Position numbers and translations under genes: made by a program. The notes under the pieces were generated by a model. It searched no databases. It saw nothing but the letters and a program-made list of their open reading frames with translations, and was not told the origin of the DNA. From positions 1-45,014 of the forward strand of contig WNZI01000025.1 in assembly GCA_009728235.1 (NCBI GenBank): DNA of 45,014 bases, given 5' to 3'. Below, piece after piece: positions 1-5,777 of the stretch. The DNA comes from Vibrio cholerae. GTDB taxonomy: Bacteria; Actinomycetota; Actinomycetes; Actinomycetales; Micrococcaceae. Numbering within the stretch: position 1 is the first letter of the stretch; every line of letters begins with the position of its first letter.

Positions 1-213
1 AAGGGACTTCAGGTAGGGGCTGCCGCCGGCGAGGGACACCAGGCCGGGGCGGATCGAGATGTCGAAGACGTCGCGCACCGCGGACTGCTTGATATTGGCG
101 GCGCGCAGCGAGAACAGGGCGTCGTGCCGGGTGGCGGAGCCCACCGCGCGCTCCAGGGCGGCTTCGGTCTCGGCAGGCAGGAGGTCGGCGGGAGCTTCGC
201 TGGAGGACGTCAC
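1..213 (-). CDS. PLP-dependent aminotransferase, N-terminal part
   Basis: The frame opens with a GTG at 211-213 and stays open to the left edge (71 codons), so only the N-terminus is present. It contains the segment RPGLVSLAGGSP, typical of the substrate and cofactor entry region of fold-type I aminotransferases of the 2-aminoadipate transaminase/LysN-like group. These are cytosolic enzymes that move amino groups between amino acids and 2-oxo acids with pyridoxal phosphate. The PLP lysine would lie outside the window, so substrate cannot be inferred. A G-rich stretch sits directly upstream of the GTG. The gene lies downstream of, and in the same orientation as, the regulator at 281-1249, but a 67-bp gap with its own repeats separates them. 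Confidence 0.7.
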   Translation of the reverse strand, partial: MTSSSEAPADLLPAETEAALERAVGSATRHDALFSLRAANIKQSAVRDVFDISIRPGLVSLAGGSPYLKSL

Positions 214-280: not shown

Positions 281-1249
281 CTAGATCCAGCCGGCGTCGC
301 GCGCCTTCAGGGCAGCCTGGAAACGGCTGTCCGCGCGCAGGGTCTCCAGCATCCAGGCGATGTGGCGGCGGCAGGTCCTGACGTTGATGTCCAGGCGCCG
401 GGCGATCGACTCGTCGGACAGCCCGTTGGCCAGGCCCTGGATGATCGAACGCTGCATGCTGCTCAGCGGCGACTCGACCTGACCGGGAGCGAGGAAGGAC
501 TCGCTGATCTCCCAGGCGATCTCGAACAGACGGGTGAAGATGCTGATCAGGCTGGAGTCACGGACCACCAGGGCCGCTTTGTCGTCGCGAGTGAGCTGCC
601 GGCCCACGAGGGCCAGTTTCTCGTCGAAGATGAGCACGCGCAGGGGGATGAAGGGCAGGACGCCGAATTCTCCGCCGCCTGCCACGATGGCTTCGACGGC
701 CTTGCGGGTAGGGACGTGGTCGCGGGTGCTGGTGTCGTAGAGGGTGCGCCGTCGTACCCCGTTCGCCAGCAGGTCGAGGTCCTTCCGGATGCTCTCCTCG
801 TGGACATCCGCCGTCGAGCCCTGCCCCGGCTGCGCGATGTACACCTTCTCCGTCACGTCCCGTCCGTAGTCGATCAGGACCCTGTGGATGAGGTGGGGAT
901 CCTCCAGTGTCTCCACGGACGTGCTGGCCAGGACGCTCTTGCGTGCCTCGAGGAAGGTGGGAAGGAGCGTCGAGAGCTCCCGACGCTGCCCGCTGATGCG
1001 CGCCTTGAGGTCCTGCATGGCACGTTCATCGGCGTCCACCAGGTCCGCGAGGGCGACATCGGGGGACACCGCGACCAGCCCGTCAGCACGTCCGGCCTGA
1101 GGGCTGAGCAGGCGTCGGGATGACAACTGCTCGATGGCCTGGTCGATGCGACGCAGCGTCAGGCCCAGCGCATCCGACGCCTCGCCCCTGGTCCACCCCG
1201 GATGGCCGACGGCGTACCTGTAGACCTCGAGCGATGTCGCGTCCAGCAT
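281..1249 (-). CDS. TrmB-like/LuxR-type transcriptional regulator
   Basis: This is a predicted cytosolic DNA-binding regulator of 322 residues. Residues 1-60 look like a winged-helix of the TrmB type (EASDALGLTLRRIDQAIEQL). The middle resembles a PLD-like or ligand-sensing domain seen in such proteins. The last ~60 residues carry a LuxR-type helix-turn-helix (LSDESIARRLDINVRTCRRH). The ATG at 1249 is chosen over an upstream ATG because AAGGA lies 6 bases before it. The gene is divergent from the SWDWPK peptide operon starting at 1622, with a dyad (1304-1321) close to its own promoter. Linkage makes it the best candidate regulator of that operon, which is inference. The ligand is unknown. Confidence 0.75.
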   Translation of the reverse strand: MLDATSLEVYRYAVGHPGWTRGEASDALGLTLRRIDQAIEQLSSRRLLSPQAGRADGLVAVSPDVALADLVDADERAMQDLKARISGQRRELSTLLPTFLEARKSVLASTSVETLEDPHLIHRVLIDYGRDVTEKVYIAQPGQGSTADVHEESIRKDLDLLANGVRRRTLYDTSTRDHVPTRKAVEAIVAGGGEFGVLPFIPLRVLIFDEKLALVGRQLTRDDKAALVVRDSSLISIFTRLFEIAWEISESFLAPGQVESPLSSMQRSIIQGLANGLSDESIARRLDINVRTCRRHIAWMLETLRADSRFQAALKARDAGWI

Positions 1250-1621
1250 GAGTGGTCCTTGCCTCGTCCGCCGGCGCCTCAGCACCGACGATGCACGATG
1301 AAAAACATGACATGTCCAGTTAATGACAGAACGAGGCCACTAGCAATCACGAGTCGGCGGGACCGGCTCGATTCGCCGTCGTTCCGCGGATCGTCGGGAC
1401 TCGAATCGGGCAACAGGGCCGAAGAGGACGGAGGCGGCGTCCTGATCACGCCATGTCCACAAACGGCCACCGCTACTGCTGGACACTACCTGCTGACGCC
1501 GGACATTCTGGTTGAGCCGGTCCGCCGGGAAGCCCAGGAGGGCGGCCCTCGGGTCGGGGCACTGCGGAACAGCAGTGTCGCGCAGCTCTACCTCCGGTGA
1601 AACGGGCAAGGAAGGATCGTC
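1250..1621. other. Divergent intergenic region, regulator / peptide operon
   Basis: There are about 370 bases between the regulator and the peptide gene. No convincing coding frame is seen. It holds the dyad at 1304-1321, a single copy of its half CATGTCCA at 1452-1459, and a strong ribosome-binding site (GGAAGGA) just before the peptide ATG at 1622. I could not assign a -35/-10 pair to the peptide gene with confidence. Confidence 0.5.
1304..1321. promoter_or_regulatory. Dyad operator candidate, AAC-NN-GACATGTC-NN-GTT
   Basis: An 18-bp inverted repeat with 14 of 18 symmetric positions is centred on the perfect palindrome GACATGTC. It lies about 55 bp upstream of the start of the TrmB/LuxR-type regulator, a usual place for autoregulation. 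The half CATGTCCA recurs at 1452-1459 on the peptide side. Binding by the neighbouring regulator is an inference. Confidence 0.45.
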
Positions 1622-1762
1622 ATGAAGAAGGTACTCGGCGCTACTGCAGGCCTGTTGATCCTGGTAGGAGCGGTCGCGCCGGCCGGTCAGTCGATCAGTG
1701 CCGCGAGCTGGGATTGGCCGAAGAGCCAGCCCACCGCAGGCAGCTGGGACTGGCCGAAGTAA
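1622..1762 (+). CDS. Small secreted-type peptide with duplicated SWDWPK
   Basis: This is a 46-residue peptide preceded by GGAAGGA five bases before the ATG. Residues 1-3 are MKK, residues 4-22 are hydrophobic, and S26-A27-A28 fits a Sec signal peptidase site. Cleavage there would leave exactly SWDWPKSQPTAGSWDWPK, 18 residues: two identical hexapeptides flanking SQPTAG. The two hexapeptide coding units (1706-1723 and 1742-1759) differ only by one synonymous base. There is no Cys. It is the first gene of an apparent operon with a SpaB_C-type enzyme, which suggests a modified peptide (RiPP) precursor. A secreted signalling peptide is the alternative. I do not recognise a described family. The gene is too short for usual gene callers. 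Confidence 0.7.
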   Translation: MKKVLGATAGLLILVGAVAPAGQSISAASWDWPKSQPTAGSWDWPK

Positions 1763-1804
1763 CCGGAGGCCACCGGACTAGAGCCCGGAGGCCTCACCCA
1801 GAGC

Positions 1805-1818
1805 CCGCCCCAGCGGGG
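1805..1818. terminator. Small hairpin between peptide and enzyme genes
   Basis: CCCGC and GCGGG pair around a CCCA loop, 42 bases after the peptide stop and before the enzyme ribosome-binding site. It has no U-tract. It might act as a weak attenuator giving more peptide than enzyme message, as in other precursor-peptide operons. This is a weak call. Confidence 0.25.
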
Positions 1819-1846
1819 GTAACCACAGACCCTGAAGGAGAGAGCC

Positions 1847-2047
1847 ATGAGCCAGGTGACCGCCGTTCGAACCGCCTCACGAACGGTCGTCAGCACTCAG
1901 TGGTGGCACCTCTCCCTCTCGACGGGTGGCTTCGATGTAGCGGACGGCATCATTGAAGAGCTGGTTACCCCGCTGGTGGCGCAAGCTCAGGCGCTCGGCG
2001 CCAAGCGCTGGTACTTCACCCGATCCGAGGACCGTCGACGGGAGTAG
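1847..2047 (+). CDS. SpaB_C-type enzyme, N-terminal part (split)
   Basis: These 66 residues follow AAGGAGAG placed well before the ATG. The start of the lantibiotic dehydratase C-terminal/thiopeptide-type bacteriocin domain is recognisable: WWHLSLSTGG opens the first strand and KRWYFTR matches the family's W-x-F-x-R strand. The frame then ends in TAG at 2045-2047. The rest of the domain continues at 2047 in the -1 frame, overlapping by one base (TAGTG). Either two coupled subunits exist or one base is missing between about 2008 and 2047. Restoring it gives one 339-residue protein, near the normal length of stand-alone members. I favour a single protein because many neighbouring genes show the same kind of break. 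Confidence 0.6.
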   Translation: MSQVTAVRTASRTVVSTQWWHLSLSTGGFDVADGIIEELVTPLVAQAQALGAKRWYFTRSEDRRRE

Positions 2048-2865
2048 TGAGTCAGATCAAGGTGAGCATCCATGCCCATCCTCGGGTGCTGGACCGGCTC
2101 CGTTCCTTCGTGCGGGTGCTGCAGACGCGCGGCGCGCGGAACTTGCCCCTCCTCTCGGTGCGCCAGCAGCTGACAGCACCTGCGAACAACACCTACTACT
2201 CCGGCGGCCCGGAGATGGCCGACCCCCAGCTCGAGGCGAATCTCGTCAAGTACGGCGGAGTCGAAGGGCTCGATCTCGCGGAGGAAGTGTTCGAACTGAG
2301 CTCCGAACTGGCCGTCTGGGCGAACCAGCGTTTCCCGCGTATGCAGAGTCGCTCCGCGCTCGGCGCGCTCGTCCTCTTCGACTCCGCGAGGAGCATGATG
2401 CGCGGTCCGCGCTCCGGCGGGTGGCCCGACCGCCGACGGCTCTCGTGGGACTTCTACTGGGACAGCCACCTGCGCACCTGCACTGCCGACGTCGGCCCAC
2501 GTGCCGGAAGCGTCAGGGAAGCCATGGCGGCTCAGGTCGCCGCTAAATCGACCGGTTTCCATGCCCTCATGGCGGCAACCGCGTCGGAATCCGCGGTGCA
2601 CAACTGGCGACGCCGGTGGTTCCGGGCGCTCGACACCTACCTCTACCGGGCGGACAAGGTCCGCGTCAGCCGCAGTGCCCAGCACCTCACCGTGTACCAG
2701 GCGCACATGACCCTCAATCGCCTGGGGTTCGTGCCGCGCGAAGAGGCTGCCCTGGGGCTGTACGCACGGTCCTGGAAGTTCCCGGTCGATCCGCTTCCAG
2801 GCGGCCGGAAGTCGTGGGAAGCGAGCGTCCCCAAGAGCGCGGTCGAGCAGAGGAGCACACCATGA
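2047..2865 (+). CDS. SpaB_C / thiopeptide-type bacteriocin biosynthesis protein
   Basis: These 272 residues carry the bulk of the LanB C-terminal (SpaB_C) fold. KYGG-x-EGLDLAEEVFELSSEL fits the family's YGG...aE.lF..S signature, and HMTLNRLGF near residue 235 fits its conserved H-M-x-x-N-R-L motif. In class I lanthipeptide dehydratases this domain eliminates glutamate from glutamylated Ser/Thr. In thiopeptide systems stand-alone relatives join two dehydroalanines. No glutamylation (LanB N-terminal) domain, cyclase, protease or transporter gene lies nearby. Its likely substrate is the peptide at 1622. The GTG start overlaps the preceding stop, and its TGA overlaps the next ATG (ATGA), so translation is coupled on both sides. 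Confidence 0.7.
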   Translation: MSQIKVSIHAHPRVLDRLRSFVRVLQTRGARNLPLLSVRQQLTAPANNTYYSGGPEMADPQLEANLVKYGGVEGLDLAEEVFELSSELAVWANQRFPRMQSRSALGALVLFDSARSMMRGPRSGGWPDRRRLSWDFYWDSHLRTCTADVGPRAGSVREAMAAQVAAKSTGFHALMAATASESAVHNWRRRWFRALDTYLYRADKVRVSRSAQHLTVYQAHMTLNRLGFVPREEAALGLYARSWKFPVDPLPGGRKSWEASVPKSAVEQRSTP

Positions 2866-3053
2866 GTACAAGGAACACGATCGTGTTGGCCGTCGATGAT
2901 GCCGATCTCTCCGCCGCTCTCGGGTGTTCCTCCGAGGACGTCGAATCGATGCAGAACGACGGCGTCCTCGCATCCCAGGGACAGCTCTGGGAGATCGGAC
3001 CGGCCCGCGAGTACCTGCGGGATGCAGCCTGGGCGGACAGCCTCTGGCGTTGA
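2862..3053 (+). CDS. Small acidic protein coupled to SpaB_C gene
   Basis: This is a 63-residue protein starting in an ATGA overlap with the SpaB_C gene, so it belongs to the same operon. The central part (LSAALGCSSEDVESMQNDGV, then a W and REYLRDA) has the look of a small excisionase/MerR-like helix-turn-helix or peptide-binding fold, but key basic residues are few and the protein is acidic. It ends in AWADSLWR. No family is recognised. It could be a recognition or accessory protein for the peptide, by context only. Confidence 0.6.
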   Translation: MSTRNTIVLAVDDADLSAALGCSSEDVESMQNDGVLASQGQLWEIGPAREYLRDAAWADSLWR

Positions 3054-3143
3054 GCGCGGACCTCGCTGCCGCTCGGTGCCTCTCCGCGTCGGGAGGGAGC
3101 CGGTGACCGCCTGGCCCGATGCGTCCGGCGTGAACCGACGGCC

Positions 3144-4256
3144 CTACACCAGTGCGGTCCAGTCGTCCGCCAACTCCAGGCCGTGCGCTTCCGAGACCGA
3201 GTGGTGGGCTACCCGCCCGCCCGCGATGTTGAGCCCGCGAGCCAGCGCGGCGTCGGTCTCCAGGGCCGCCCGGACACCCTTGTCCGCGAGGGCGACGGCG
3301 TAGCGCAGGGTCACGTTCGTCAGTGCGTAGGTCGAGGTGGAGGGCACCGCTCCCGGCATGTTGCCCACGCAGTAGAACAGTGATCCGTGGACGGTGAAGG
3401 TCGGGTCCTCGTGCGTGGTGACGTGCGAGTCCTCGAAACAGCCGCCCTGATCCACGGCGATGTCCACGAGTACGCTACCGGGTCTCATCCGGGACACGAG
3501 CGCATTGGTGACGAGCTTCGGTGCGCGGGCGCCCGGGATGAGGACCGATCCGATGACGAGGTCGGCTTCGAGCACCGACTTCTCGATCTCGAGCGCGTTC
3601 GAGGCGACGGTCTTGATGCGTCCTGCGTACAGGGCATCCAGTTCACGCAGCCGCGCGATGTTGATGTCGAGGATCGTGACGTCGGCACCTGTTCCCACGG
3701 CCATCGCGGTCGCGTTGGTGCCGGCGACGCCCGCGCCGAGCACCACGACCTTGGCGGGTCGAACCCCCGCGACTCCACCCAGGAGCAGCCCCGGTCCCCC
3801 CGCCGGAGCGGTCATGACCTGCGCCCCGACCTGGACGGAGAGTCGGCCGGCGACCTCGGACATGGGGGCGAGCAGTGGGAGCATCCGGCCGTCCTGGACG
3901 GTCTCGTAGGCGATCGCGATGACGCCGGCCTCGAGCAGCGCCTTCGTGAGGTCGGGCTCGGCGGCGAGGTGGAGGTAGGTGAAGAGGATGAGACCCGGGC
4001 GGAATCGGTGGTACTCGGCGGCTACGGGCTCCTTGACCTTCAGGACCATGTCGGCTCTCGCCCAGACGTCATCGGCCGAATCCACCAGTTCGGCGCCCGC
4101 CGCCTGGTACTCGGCGTCCGTGATGCCGGATCCGGTTCCCGCGTTCCGTTCCACGAGGACGGTGTGACCGTGTGCCAGGAACTCGTGGACGCCGGAGGCG
4201 GTGATCGCCACGCGGAACTCGTTGTTCTTCACTTCTTTGGGGACGCCGATGATCAT
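3144..4256 (-). CDS. ald: Alanine dehydrogenase
   Basis: This cytosolic enzyme interconverts L-alanine and pyruvate plus ammonia with NAD. The 370 residues from MIIGVPKEVKNNEFRVA match the usual length and N-terminus of the family. The frame extends 58 codons further upstream, but GGAG lies 7 bases before the ATG at 4256. Visible signatures are VLKVKEP (substrate Lys), FTYLHLAAE (catalytic His), VLGAGVAGTNATAMA (NAD-binding glycine loop) and DIAVDQGGCFE (catalytic Asp). The gene is divergent from a PucR-type regulator at 4523. PucR-family AdeR activates ald in Bacillus, so the same pairing is likely here. Confidence 0.95.
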   Translation of the reverse strand: MIIGVPKEVKNNEFRVAITASGVHEFLAHGHTVLVERNAGTGSGITDAEYQAAGAELVDSADDVWARADMVLKVKEPVAAEYHRFRPGLILFTYLHLAAEPDLTKALLEAGVIAIAYETVQDGRMLPLLAPMSEVAGRLSVQVGAQVMTAPAGGPGLLLGGVAGVRPAKVVVLGAGVAGTNATAMAVGTGADVTILDINIARLRELDALYAGRIKTVASNALEIEKSVLEADLVIGSVLIPGARAPKLVTNALVSRMRPGSVLVDIAVDQGGCFEDSHVTTHEDPTFTVHGSLFYCVGNMPGAVPSTSTYALTNVTLRYAVALADKGVRAALETDAALARGLNIAGGRVAHHSVSEAHGLELADDWTALV

Positions 4257-4510
4257 TGGGTTCTCCACGGGTGCGATCGGGCGGACGGGGATAGGTCCAG
4301 AATAGGGACGCTCCGCCTCGGCGTGGTCCCGGGTTTCCGTGGTGCCGGCCGTCGGGTCCGGCATGAACACGGAGCCGACGGGCGCCCGACCGGCGAACTC
4401 GCGGAATTCGTCCACTGTGAGCTGGGCCACTAGCAGGCGGCGAGCGATCCCGCCATCGACAGGTGTCGAGTACGAGGGCGGCAGATGTCGCCCTCGGTGC
4501 GCGGCCCGCT

Positions 4511-4516
4511 TACTGT
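4511..4516 (+). promoter_or_regulatory. -10 element TACTGT, probable leaderless start
   Basis: TACTGT ends six bases before the GTG start of the PucR-type gene and no Shine-Dalgarno sequence is present. Transcription would begin at or near the start codon. The same element at the same distance precedes the gene at 41527. Confidence 0.45.
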
Positions 4517-4522
4517 TGGGCT

Positions 4523-5777
4523 GTGCAGAACCAGGCCATCGAGGACGTCGTCGAGTCGATCGCGCGCGAGCTCGGGCGAGGACTGTCCCTCGAGGATCCT
4601 GACGGAGCCCTCCTGGCCTACAGCAGTCATCAGACTTCGGCGGACCGGGTGCGCGTCAATTTCCTGCTCAGCAAGAGGGTTCCGGCCGACGTCAGCGAAT
4701 GGCAGCTGCGGCATGGGATCGATCGGGCCGTCCGGGCCGTCGCCGTTCCGGCGAACGACGAGCTGGGCATGCTGGGCCGGGTATGCGTTCCGCTGCTCGT
4801 CCGTGGTTTCCGCGTCGGGTACCTGTGGGTTCAGCAGCACGACAGCGGGGATCCCCCGGCCGAGATCCTGGCGGCCCTGCCCGCGGTCCGGTCGACGATC
4901 GACCGCCTTGCCGAACTGCTTCTGGAGACGGACACGGCCTCCTCCGAGCGCAGGACGCAGCGGGAGGCGGCATTCCTCGCCGCCTGTCGGGGAGTGGCGG
5001 CGGCTGTCGAGGAGTTGCGCGGGTGGCGCGAGCTCGGCGCGCACGGCCCCTGGCGCCTGGCGTTGGTCCACGAACTGCACGACGACGACGGCGGTGCAGC
5101 GCGCGGTCGGTCGAGGCCGGACGGACACGGAGCGGATCCGCACGAAGCCGCGCTGTTCCAGCGGACCCTCGCGCTGCAGGCGACGGTCGGCGTCGGCCCC
5201 GTCCTCTTCAGCGCAGGTGCCTCCGGCCATTCCGTCCTCCTGTGCGCCCCCGACATCGGGAAGAGCGCGCTGCAGCAGGTCATCGACCGGTACCGGTCGA
5301 GGTGGGCAAACGGGCCGGACGGCCGGCGGCTCGCTTCATCCTGGGTCTGAGCGAGCCCGTGGTCGACCCGCGGGACTTCGAGGCCGGGCTGCTCCAGGCG
5401 CAGCACGCGGTCCAGGCGGCCGCGTCGATCCCCAACTCGGCGACATCCCGTGGTACGCGGAGATCGGGGTCTACCAGTTCCTCGGTGCGTTGGGCTGGCA
5501 GGCTCCCTCTCCCGGCAGTATCCACTTCGGAGAGTTGAGCGAGGCGGACCGCGTGGACGAATTGTTGCCGGTCCTCGAGCTGCTCTACGACAAGAACGGG
5601 TCGGTCCAGGACGTCGCCGGCCAACTCCACCTCCACCGCAGCAGCGTGTACAACCGGCTGGCGCGGATCCGGTCTGCCATAGGCGCCGATCCACTCGCAG
5701 GTTCGGTGAGGCTGGAGCTCCATCTGGCACTCAAGGCCCGCCGCTGGCGGCGGCGTCCCCGCTTCGAACCGTCCTAG
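4523..5777 (+). CDS. PucR/AdeR-type regulator of alanine dehydrogenase, two frameshifts
   Basis: This predicted activator lies next to ald. It reads in one frame from VQNQAIEDVVESIARELG to GPDGRRLA (about 5325), in a second frame through FILGLSEPVVDPRDFEAGLL to AASIP (about 5430), and in a third from LGDIPWYAEIG to the stop. Both shifts are in the same direction and each is healed by adding one base, giving 418 residues, normal for the family. The C-terminal helix-turn-helix (GSVQDVAGQLHLHRSSVYNRL) is the PucR HTH. The second break lies at a CCCC run. Sequencing deletion is more likely than decay because all conserved segments are intact, but a pseudogene cannot be excluded. It is probably translated from a leaderless message. 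Confidence 0.75.

Follow-up and report, generated by a model that had tools for sequence, protein, structure and literature searches.

What does a SpaB_C protein do when it is encoded apart from its usual partners, directly behind a tiny gene for a tryptophan-containing peptide? SpaB_C domains are known as partners in tRNA-dependent glutamylation or as cyclases that join dehydroalanines. The question is raised by the first genes of a 45,014-nucleotide stretch of Micrococcaceae DNA (the window, meaning the whole stretch analysed). An earlier note on this DNA had read them as three to four tightly coupled genes that form a minimal "RiPP-like or peptide-signal" system. We examined the genes, their relatives and their neighbourhoods by sequence comparison.

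Layout of the locus and its interrupted enzyme gene

The ORFs of 46, 66, 272 and 63 residues, as well as the TAGTG and ATGA overlaps between them, are present just as described in the earlier note. The unit is not an isolated one, however, since a LuxR-type regulator (REG) and operator-like sites belong to it too. The window thus starts with a four-gene unit, in which REG on the minus strand faces a plus-strand operon of the peptide gene (pep), the SpaB_C gene and ORF3:

281..1285, minus strand: REG, divergent LuxR-type regulator of 334 aa with a C-terminal GerE/LuxR HTH
1309..1317, no strand assigned: operator-like site GACATGTCC, in a stretch conserved throughout the agilis clade
1452..1458, no strand assigned: second operator-like site, CATGTCC, within the CATGTC enrichment described below
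1622..1762, plus strand: pep, 46-aa Trp-peptide precursor with a Sec-type N-terminus (judged by eye)
1706..1723, plus strand: pep core copy 1, SWDWPK, with an Asp codon unlike that of copy 2
1742..1759, plus strand: pep core copy 2, SWDWPK, at the C-terminus
1806..1825, plus strand: untranslated block CGCCCCAGCGGGGGTAACCA, conserved, just 5' of the enzyme ribosome site
1847..2047, plus strand: SpaB_C protein, N-terminal piece of 66 aa, stopping at the frame change
2047..2865, plus strand: SpaB_C protein, the other 272 aa, in a different frame
2862..3053, plus strand: ORF3, 63-aa putative MerR-like winged-helix protein with the C-terminal motif YLRDAAWADSLW

REG, pep and the SpaB_C gene are kept together across seven Micrococcaceae genera, and in five of these ORF3 joins them. 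A scan of named sequences yielded 43 loci, each carrying an Arthrobacter or Micrococcaceae label, which together with the window give 44 loci for comparison, many of them close relatives. REG adjoins pep or the enzyme gene in 41 of the 44, being absent within 6 kb around L066, L069 and L072, and ORF3 is present in 43. Beyond REG lies a class I/II aminotransferase gene (window positions 1-213, minus strand), whose ORF cluster recurs in 40 of the 44 loci, including L032-L074. Further out lies a 2-oxoacid dehydrogenase acyltransferase gene, with a cluster found in 38 of 44; both clusters were named by Pfam on one member. These neighbours mark a conserved chromosomal position.

The enzyme gene of the window has a net shift of frame near 2030-2047. 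Of 29 relatives, 28 encode the enzyme in a single ORF of 316-356 aa, the exception being the broken copy of L023, indicating that the two ORFs of the window are one gene and that the count of "three to four" coupled genes is not supported. The TAGTG coupling, previously taken as a feature of the system, therefore arises from a frame change within a single gene. Among the 43 named loci short enzyme ORFs occur in L070, L072 and L073, and L070 is apparently the same contig as L023. A neighbouring gene of the window (about 4463-5777, with a PucR-type HTH at its end) shifts frame twice and runs through three frames, while related ORFs have a median length of 403 aa. Two broken genes lying so close together lead us to suspect assembly indels in the contig, and for the frame change of the enzyme we rate gene decay as no more likely than an assembly error.

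A family of short tryptophan peptides

Upstream of the enzyme, every one of the 43 named Micrococcaceae loci, like the window, has a short ORF with W-[D/E]-W; the peptide thus recurs next to homologous enzymes, which was the test that the earlier note had set for itself. An SD-preceded short ORF ending in [WY][DEGA]W plus 0-9 residues occurs in 40 of 44 enzyme upstreams, compared with 18 of 5750 control windows. The four misses are L041, whose last core copy is out of frame and where only an internal copy is intact, and L049, L051 and L056, whose starts lie outside the SD pattern used. No more than 9 residues separate the motif [WY]-x-W from the stop in 43 of these 44 loci, which were not selected for the peptide (all but L041). 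Of 14 further loci, chosen for having the peptide, 13 show the same, and in L129 the gap is 10 residues. Across 56 loci, 0 to 6 residues lie between W-x-W and the stop.

Precursors carry 1-4 core copies in the named loci and the window, and six in L107. Agilis-type precursors mostly combine a Sec-type N-terminus with 1-3 copies of SWDWPK or NWEWPK, whereas other clades show their own variants: VWDWPQ four times (L047/L106) or six times (L107) in genus g123, endings in AWDW or IWDW in g114, WGWPQKT or WDWKN in g112, WAWPES in g117, and YDWPTVA, with the first Trp replaced by Tyr, in g34. Precursors of the citreus/koreensis/luteolus type are MKSWDWF (seven codons that make up the entire gene, in five named loci), M..SIKSWEWF and MTKVWDWI. 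The first of these resembles MccA of microcin C7, a 7-residue gene serving as peptide precursor, whose product is adenylated at its C-terminus by MccB. The citreus-type precursor (MKSWDWF) lacks a signal sequence, and the precursor of L042 (Arthrobacter sp. H5), MNKIVGASWDWPKSAAASWDWPKSAAASWDWPK, has three cores and no hydrophobic signal stretch; Sec-type signals were called throughout from visual inspection and a simple rule of hydrophobicity. Pfam gave no match for pep or ORF3.

The constant core is aromatic-x-Trp; x is an acidic residue, Asp or Glu, everywhere except in L118 (Gly) and L129 (Ala). Codons change at their third positions without changing the residue: across 70 core copies Asp is encoded by GAT or GAC, Glu by GAA or GAG, Pro by all four codons and Lys by both, with synonymous variation seen at D, E, P, K and S codons, and the copies differ in nucleotides in 17 of 21 multi-copy precursors. 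This variation indicates that selection acts on the peptide. The residue before the first Trp is Ser, or else Asn, Val, Ile or Ala. The earlier note had proposed to look for water loss at Ser; as this residue is not conserved, dehydroalanine chemistry is unlikely. The absence of Cys from the window peptide, also remarked on there, is evident from its translation.

Two untranslated blocks accompany these genes. The block CGCCCCAGCGGGGGTAACCA, with the general form CGCCCCAGCGG(N)GGTAACC, is kept across clades before the enzyme ribosome site. A 17-nt block, GGGAAGCTTTCGGAGTC, lies upstream of the short peptide, about 190-240 nt before the enzyme; it is invariant in 16 of 16 citreus-type loci (L050 and others) and may belong to a promoter or a 5' leader. 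On inspection the sequence ahead of the enzyme start seemed able to form a hairpin, an idea set aside for want of covariation: RNAalifold on 24 sequences of the pre-enzyme block gave 2 pairs and no compensatory change, and Rfam gave no match in nine loci at gathering thresholds or in window positions 1250-3200 at E<=1.

The SpaB_C protein and ORF3

The assignment of the enzyme to SpaB_C stands. PF14028 (Lant_dehydr_C) matches the 272-aa piece over profile positions 91-248 with 39.2 bits, above the cut-off of 24.4, and the 66-aa piece over positions 1-45 with 17.6 bits, below it, while five intact relatives score 63-88 bits. Foldseek with an enzyme model returned MibB, MadB, a [4+2] aza-cyclase and TsrL at E<0.001; the model, made from 11 sequences, is weak (pLDDT 62.6) and serves for the fold family only. 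An Arthrobacter enzyme profile run against PDB sequences found no relative (one chance-level row, E 1.4), and the same search with split LanBs added to the profile retrieved MibB, 9g04, NisB and TsrE. All 35 genus genomes examined carry the enzyme, as does one of 22 other genomes from the order. A wider scan matched 64 of 295 family genomes and 10 of 32 genera, a count that includes split LanBs in g113 and g122. Arthrobacter agilis and A. citreus are among the carriers.

Class I lanthipeptide dehydratases of the split type, with separate glutamylation and SpaB_C elimination subunits, share the SpaB_C fold and provide the nearest outside sequence relatives, whose YGG and H-M-x-x-N-R regions are also kept in the cassette enzyme. 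The surroundings differ. As the earlier note had stated, no glutamylating LanB domain and no cyclase accompany the enzyme: PF04738 (LanB-N) has no match in the window genome (about 95% complete) and occurs in 1 of 38 genus genomes, and PF05147 (LanC) occurs in 0 of 38. The precursor has neither Cys nor a conserved Ser or Thr, so that none of the marks of a class I lanthipeptide (PF04738, PF05147, a core with Ser/Thr and Cys) was found. The thiopeptide pyridine synthases TbtD, PbtD and TsrL are likewise stand-alone SpaB_C proteins, which join two dehydroalanines in a leader-bearing precursor. In contrast, the cassette peptide has no conserved Ser and one clade has no leader; a Ser that could form dehydroalanine is not kept, and the LanB-N dehydratase domain was not found in the window genome.

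In NisB, E823 and R786 take part in glutamate elimination, and both positions are fixed in 7 of 7 split LanBs. Among 49 peptide-linked enzymes (a count omitting L041 and the broken L070, L072 and L073), however, the E823 position holds D in 24, N in 12 and E in 12, and the R786 position holds Arg in only 19, a pattern unlike that of a functional glutamate-elimination domain. H287 is the putative equivalent of NisB H961, an equivalence drawn from H-M-x-x-N-R spacing rather than from direct alignment, and is present in 46 of the 49. In NisB, H961A is reported to abolish dehydration (PMC4341554). With the putative elimination-domain His retained and the Ser of the peptide variable, dehydration is less likely than plain binding or a reaction that does not involve Ser.

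Solo SpaB_C paralogues (L138-L177) come mostly from genus g26, where a genome has up to 7 enzyme-profile matches, fragments counted. None of 34 has a W-[DEGA]-W peptide, and neither the ORF3 motif nor REG was found in their 1.2-3 kb flanks, a check that left out L173 and L175; L135 is not among the loci analysed. The catalytic-type His is present in 10 of the 34, as against 46 of 49 peptide-linked enzymes, and the solo copies look like diverging duplicates.

ORF3 ends in a conserved Trp-containing motif, YLRDAAWADSLW, in an alignment (A3) of 37 of the 43 copies found. Genus g114 keeps only the C-terminal part, and ORF3 was not found in g34. This putative MerR-like mini winged-helix protein is probably an adaptor or co-regulator. 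PADLOC gave no match for the enzyme or ORF3.

REG, neighbouring peptides and a possible signal

REG is matched by GerE and other HTH models in Pfam; its N-terminal region looks HTH-like by eye, its middle part weakly resembles TrmB (E 0.06), and no TPR family is among its Pfam or NCBIfam matches. Two weak PADLOC matches (E about 0.001, positions 269-317) were taken as a shared HTH. In the further genera REG adjoins pep in all peptide-linked loci, with 30-36% identity in g34 and g117. Upstream of the enzyme, CATGTC occurs in 111 copies in 43 loci, or 5.49 per kb versus 0.40 elsewhere (the sequences being related and not independent), which is the pattern expected for an autoregulated divergent promoter.

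Homologues of REG at E<=1e-20 are present in 64 of 296 class genomes. We inspected 69 REG loci outside the family, drawn mostly from the top scores among 127 places outside the window genome. At 14 of the 69, a small divergent ORF with an SD site, a signal-peptide-like N-terminus and D-x-x-W close to its end begins 163-265 nt from REG, compared with 4 of 207 control flanks, a comparison that is not blind, since the pattern was defined after examples had been seen. The other 55 have no such ORF by this definition; at L201 the contig ends close by and the divergent side was not properly read. Under a looser definition, in which any Trp among the final 14 residues counted, the figures were 21 of 69 loci and 13 of 138 controls. 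Several precursors are tandem, with seven DSGW (L252), seven DVGW (L261) or five DSGW (L221) copies. The REG homologues of genus g144 (L221, L240, L250, L252, L256 and L261) stand beside secreted-type ORFs with DSGW, DVGW or DPGW repeats. Relaxed inspection adds L206 (three DTGWG), L207 and L223. The relatives listed for the L221 precursor are seven, without a name or called 'hypothetical protein', one of them labelled Streptomyces. In 29 loci tested, no ORF with WxW and no SpaB_C gene lies beside the outside REG homologues.

An unrooted tree of REG (79 rows, L201 and L258 absent) has a branch with support 99/96 that separates 37 rows, among them the window REG and 22 of the 25 peptide-linked REGs (11 from Micrococcaceae and 11 of the 14 from outside), from 42 rows that hold the other 3; the peptide label needs 9 changes on this tree. 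The D-x-x-W precursors, mostly from g144 with genomes of 6-11 Mb, thus resemble pep in having a homologous regulator that is mostly on the window's side of the tree, a divergent small secreted-type gene and a repeated Trp core, and differ from it in the core itself (DSGW or DVGW, not WDW) and in having no adjacent SpaB_C gene in the 29 loci tested. A similar two-gene logic, with a propeptide beside a regulator, is that of RRNPP signalling in Firmicutes, where, according to PMC10075063, a communication propeptide gene lies beside a cytoplasmic receptor gene. The cassette differs from RRNPP by its LuxR-type REG without TPR matches, its divergent arrangement, its tandem Trp cores, and the additional SpaB_C protein and ORF3.

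A small secreted-type precursor gene that adjoins, and is conserved with, a transcription-factor gene is the arrangement of a peptide-pheromone system (with a secretion signal that was assessed visually and that the citreus-type clade lacks). Of the two halves of the "RiPP-like or peptide-signal" proposal, the peptide-signal half is favoured, since elsewhere Trp-peptide precursors are the partners of homologous regulators, with no SpaB_C gene in the 29 loci tested. Judging from these comparisons, we put at about an even chance that the locus is a Trp-peptide signalling cassette, a pheromone system whose SpaB_C protein binds or matures the W-D-W peptide. The precursor would be secreted or released and then cut into short Trp peptides, and these would act as an autoinducer read by REG, which would use the conserved CATGTC sites to regulate the pep operon as well as its own expression. 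The SpaB_C protein may derive from a split lanthipeptide dehydratase, of which it was the elimination half, and may now bind or chemically mature the W-D-W peptide without a glutamylation step, by a Ser-independent reaction such as alpha-carbon epimerisation or succinimide chemistry at the acidic residue, or by plain binding; ORF3 might assist at this step. Tandem copies, near-invariant cores, presence throughout the genus sample and regulator-peptide pairs with no SpaB_C gene alongside fit the signal model. The missing signal sequence of the citreus-type clade and L042, odd for a secreted pheromone, counts against it, and so does the fact that no exporter, protease or importer gene was noticed in the cassette.

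If the locus were a minimal RiPP pathway for an antibiotic-like natural product, SpaB_C would modify the Trp peptide, REG would be merely pathway-specific and the product would target other organisms. This is in keeping with the solved SpaB_C relatives MibB, MadB, NisB, TbtD, PbtD and TsrL, all RiPP enzymes, and RiPP clusters too can have multi-copy cores and a regulator. Yet no immunity, exporter or protease gene was noticed, the near-invariant core and the enzyme's occurrence in every genus genome examined are unlike fast-evolving toxins, and related regulators pair with Trp peptides and, in the 29 loci tested, with no SpaB_C gene; we consider such a pathway unlikely. In another reading pep and REG are a separate signal pair regulating SpaB_C, itself an orphan enzyme with another cellular substrate. 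The many enzyme-profile matches of g26 genomes, the 34 solo copies without a WDW peptide and the REG-peptide pairs outside the family that have no SpaB_C gene next to them agree with this, but the peptide-linked copies keep the His that most solos lack and travel with pep and mostly with ORF3, and the solos resemble diverging duplicates, which makes an orphan enzyme quite improbable.

A role of pep as a regulatory leader, in which translation of or stalling at W-D-W (attenuation or an arrest peptide) controls the SpaB_C gene, with no further function for the peptide, would account for a short ORF directly 5' of the enzyme with two Trp codons, a length down to 7 codons and a conserved untranslated block before the ribosome site. 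Such models fail on the variable distance to the stop, on tandem copies, up to six, and on the Tyr in place of the first Trp in one locus. The acidic residue kept through synonymous change, the lack of covarying structure or an Rfam match, and the Sec-type N-termini of most agilis-type loci argue further against a leader, and we regard it as very unlikely.

Returning to the signalling cassette, a broader version of it is tentative, and we hold it possible but short of probable: a new, actinomycete-wide form of peptide communication in which LuxR-type regulators read Trp peptides from tandem-repeat precursors, the Micrococcaceae having shrunk the core to W-D-W, down to a 7-codon gene, and recruited an orphan elimination domain that needs neither glutamyl-tRNA nor Ser. 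No description of the cassette and no occurrence of the string WDWPK was found in the literature searched, which excluded bioRxiv and most subscription papers; for MKSWDWF, KSWEWF, SWDWP, WDWPQ and NWEWP, the matches listed held only 'swdwp', under social-science or data-policy titles. The enzyme family is known and its setting is not. Since SpaB_C is kept genus-wide beside a Trp peptide that can do without its Ser, it must do something other than its known roles, and there is a fair chance that its chemistry is new.

To our knowledge, peptide quorum sensing in actinomycetes is poorly known. If the signal reading is true, these loci would represent a peptide pheromone family in actinomycetes, whose precursors, of 7 codons or with up to seven tandem DSGW-type copies, are missed or called hypothetical by standard annotation. 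Culturable, named carriers such as Arthrobacter agilis and A. citreus make the idea directly testable with synthetic peptides of 6-7 residues.
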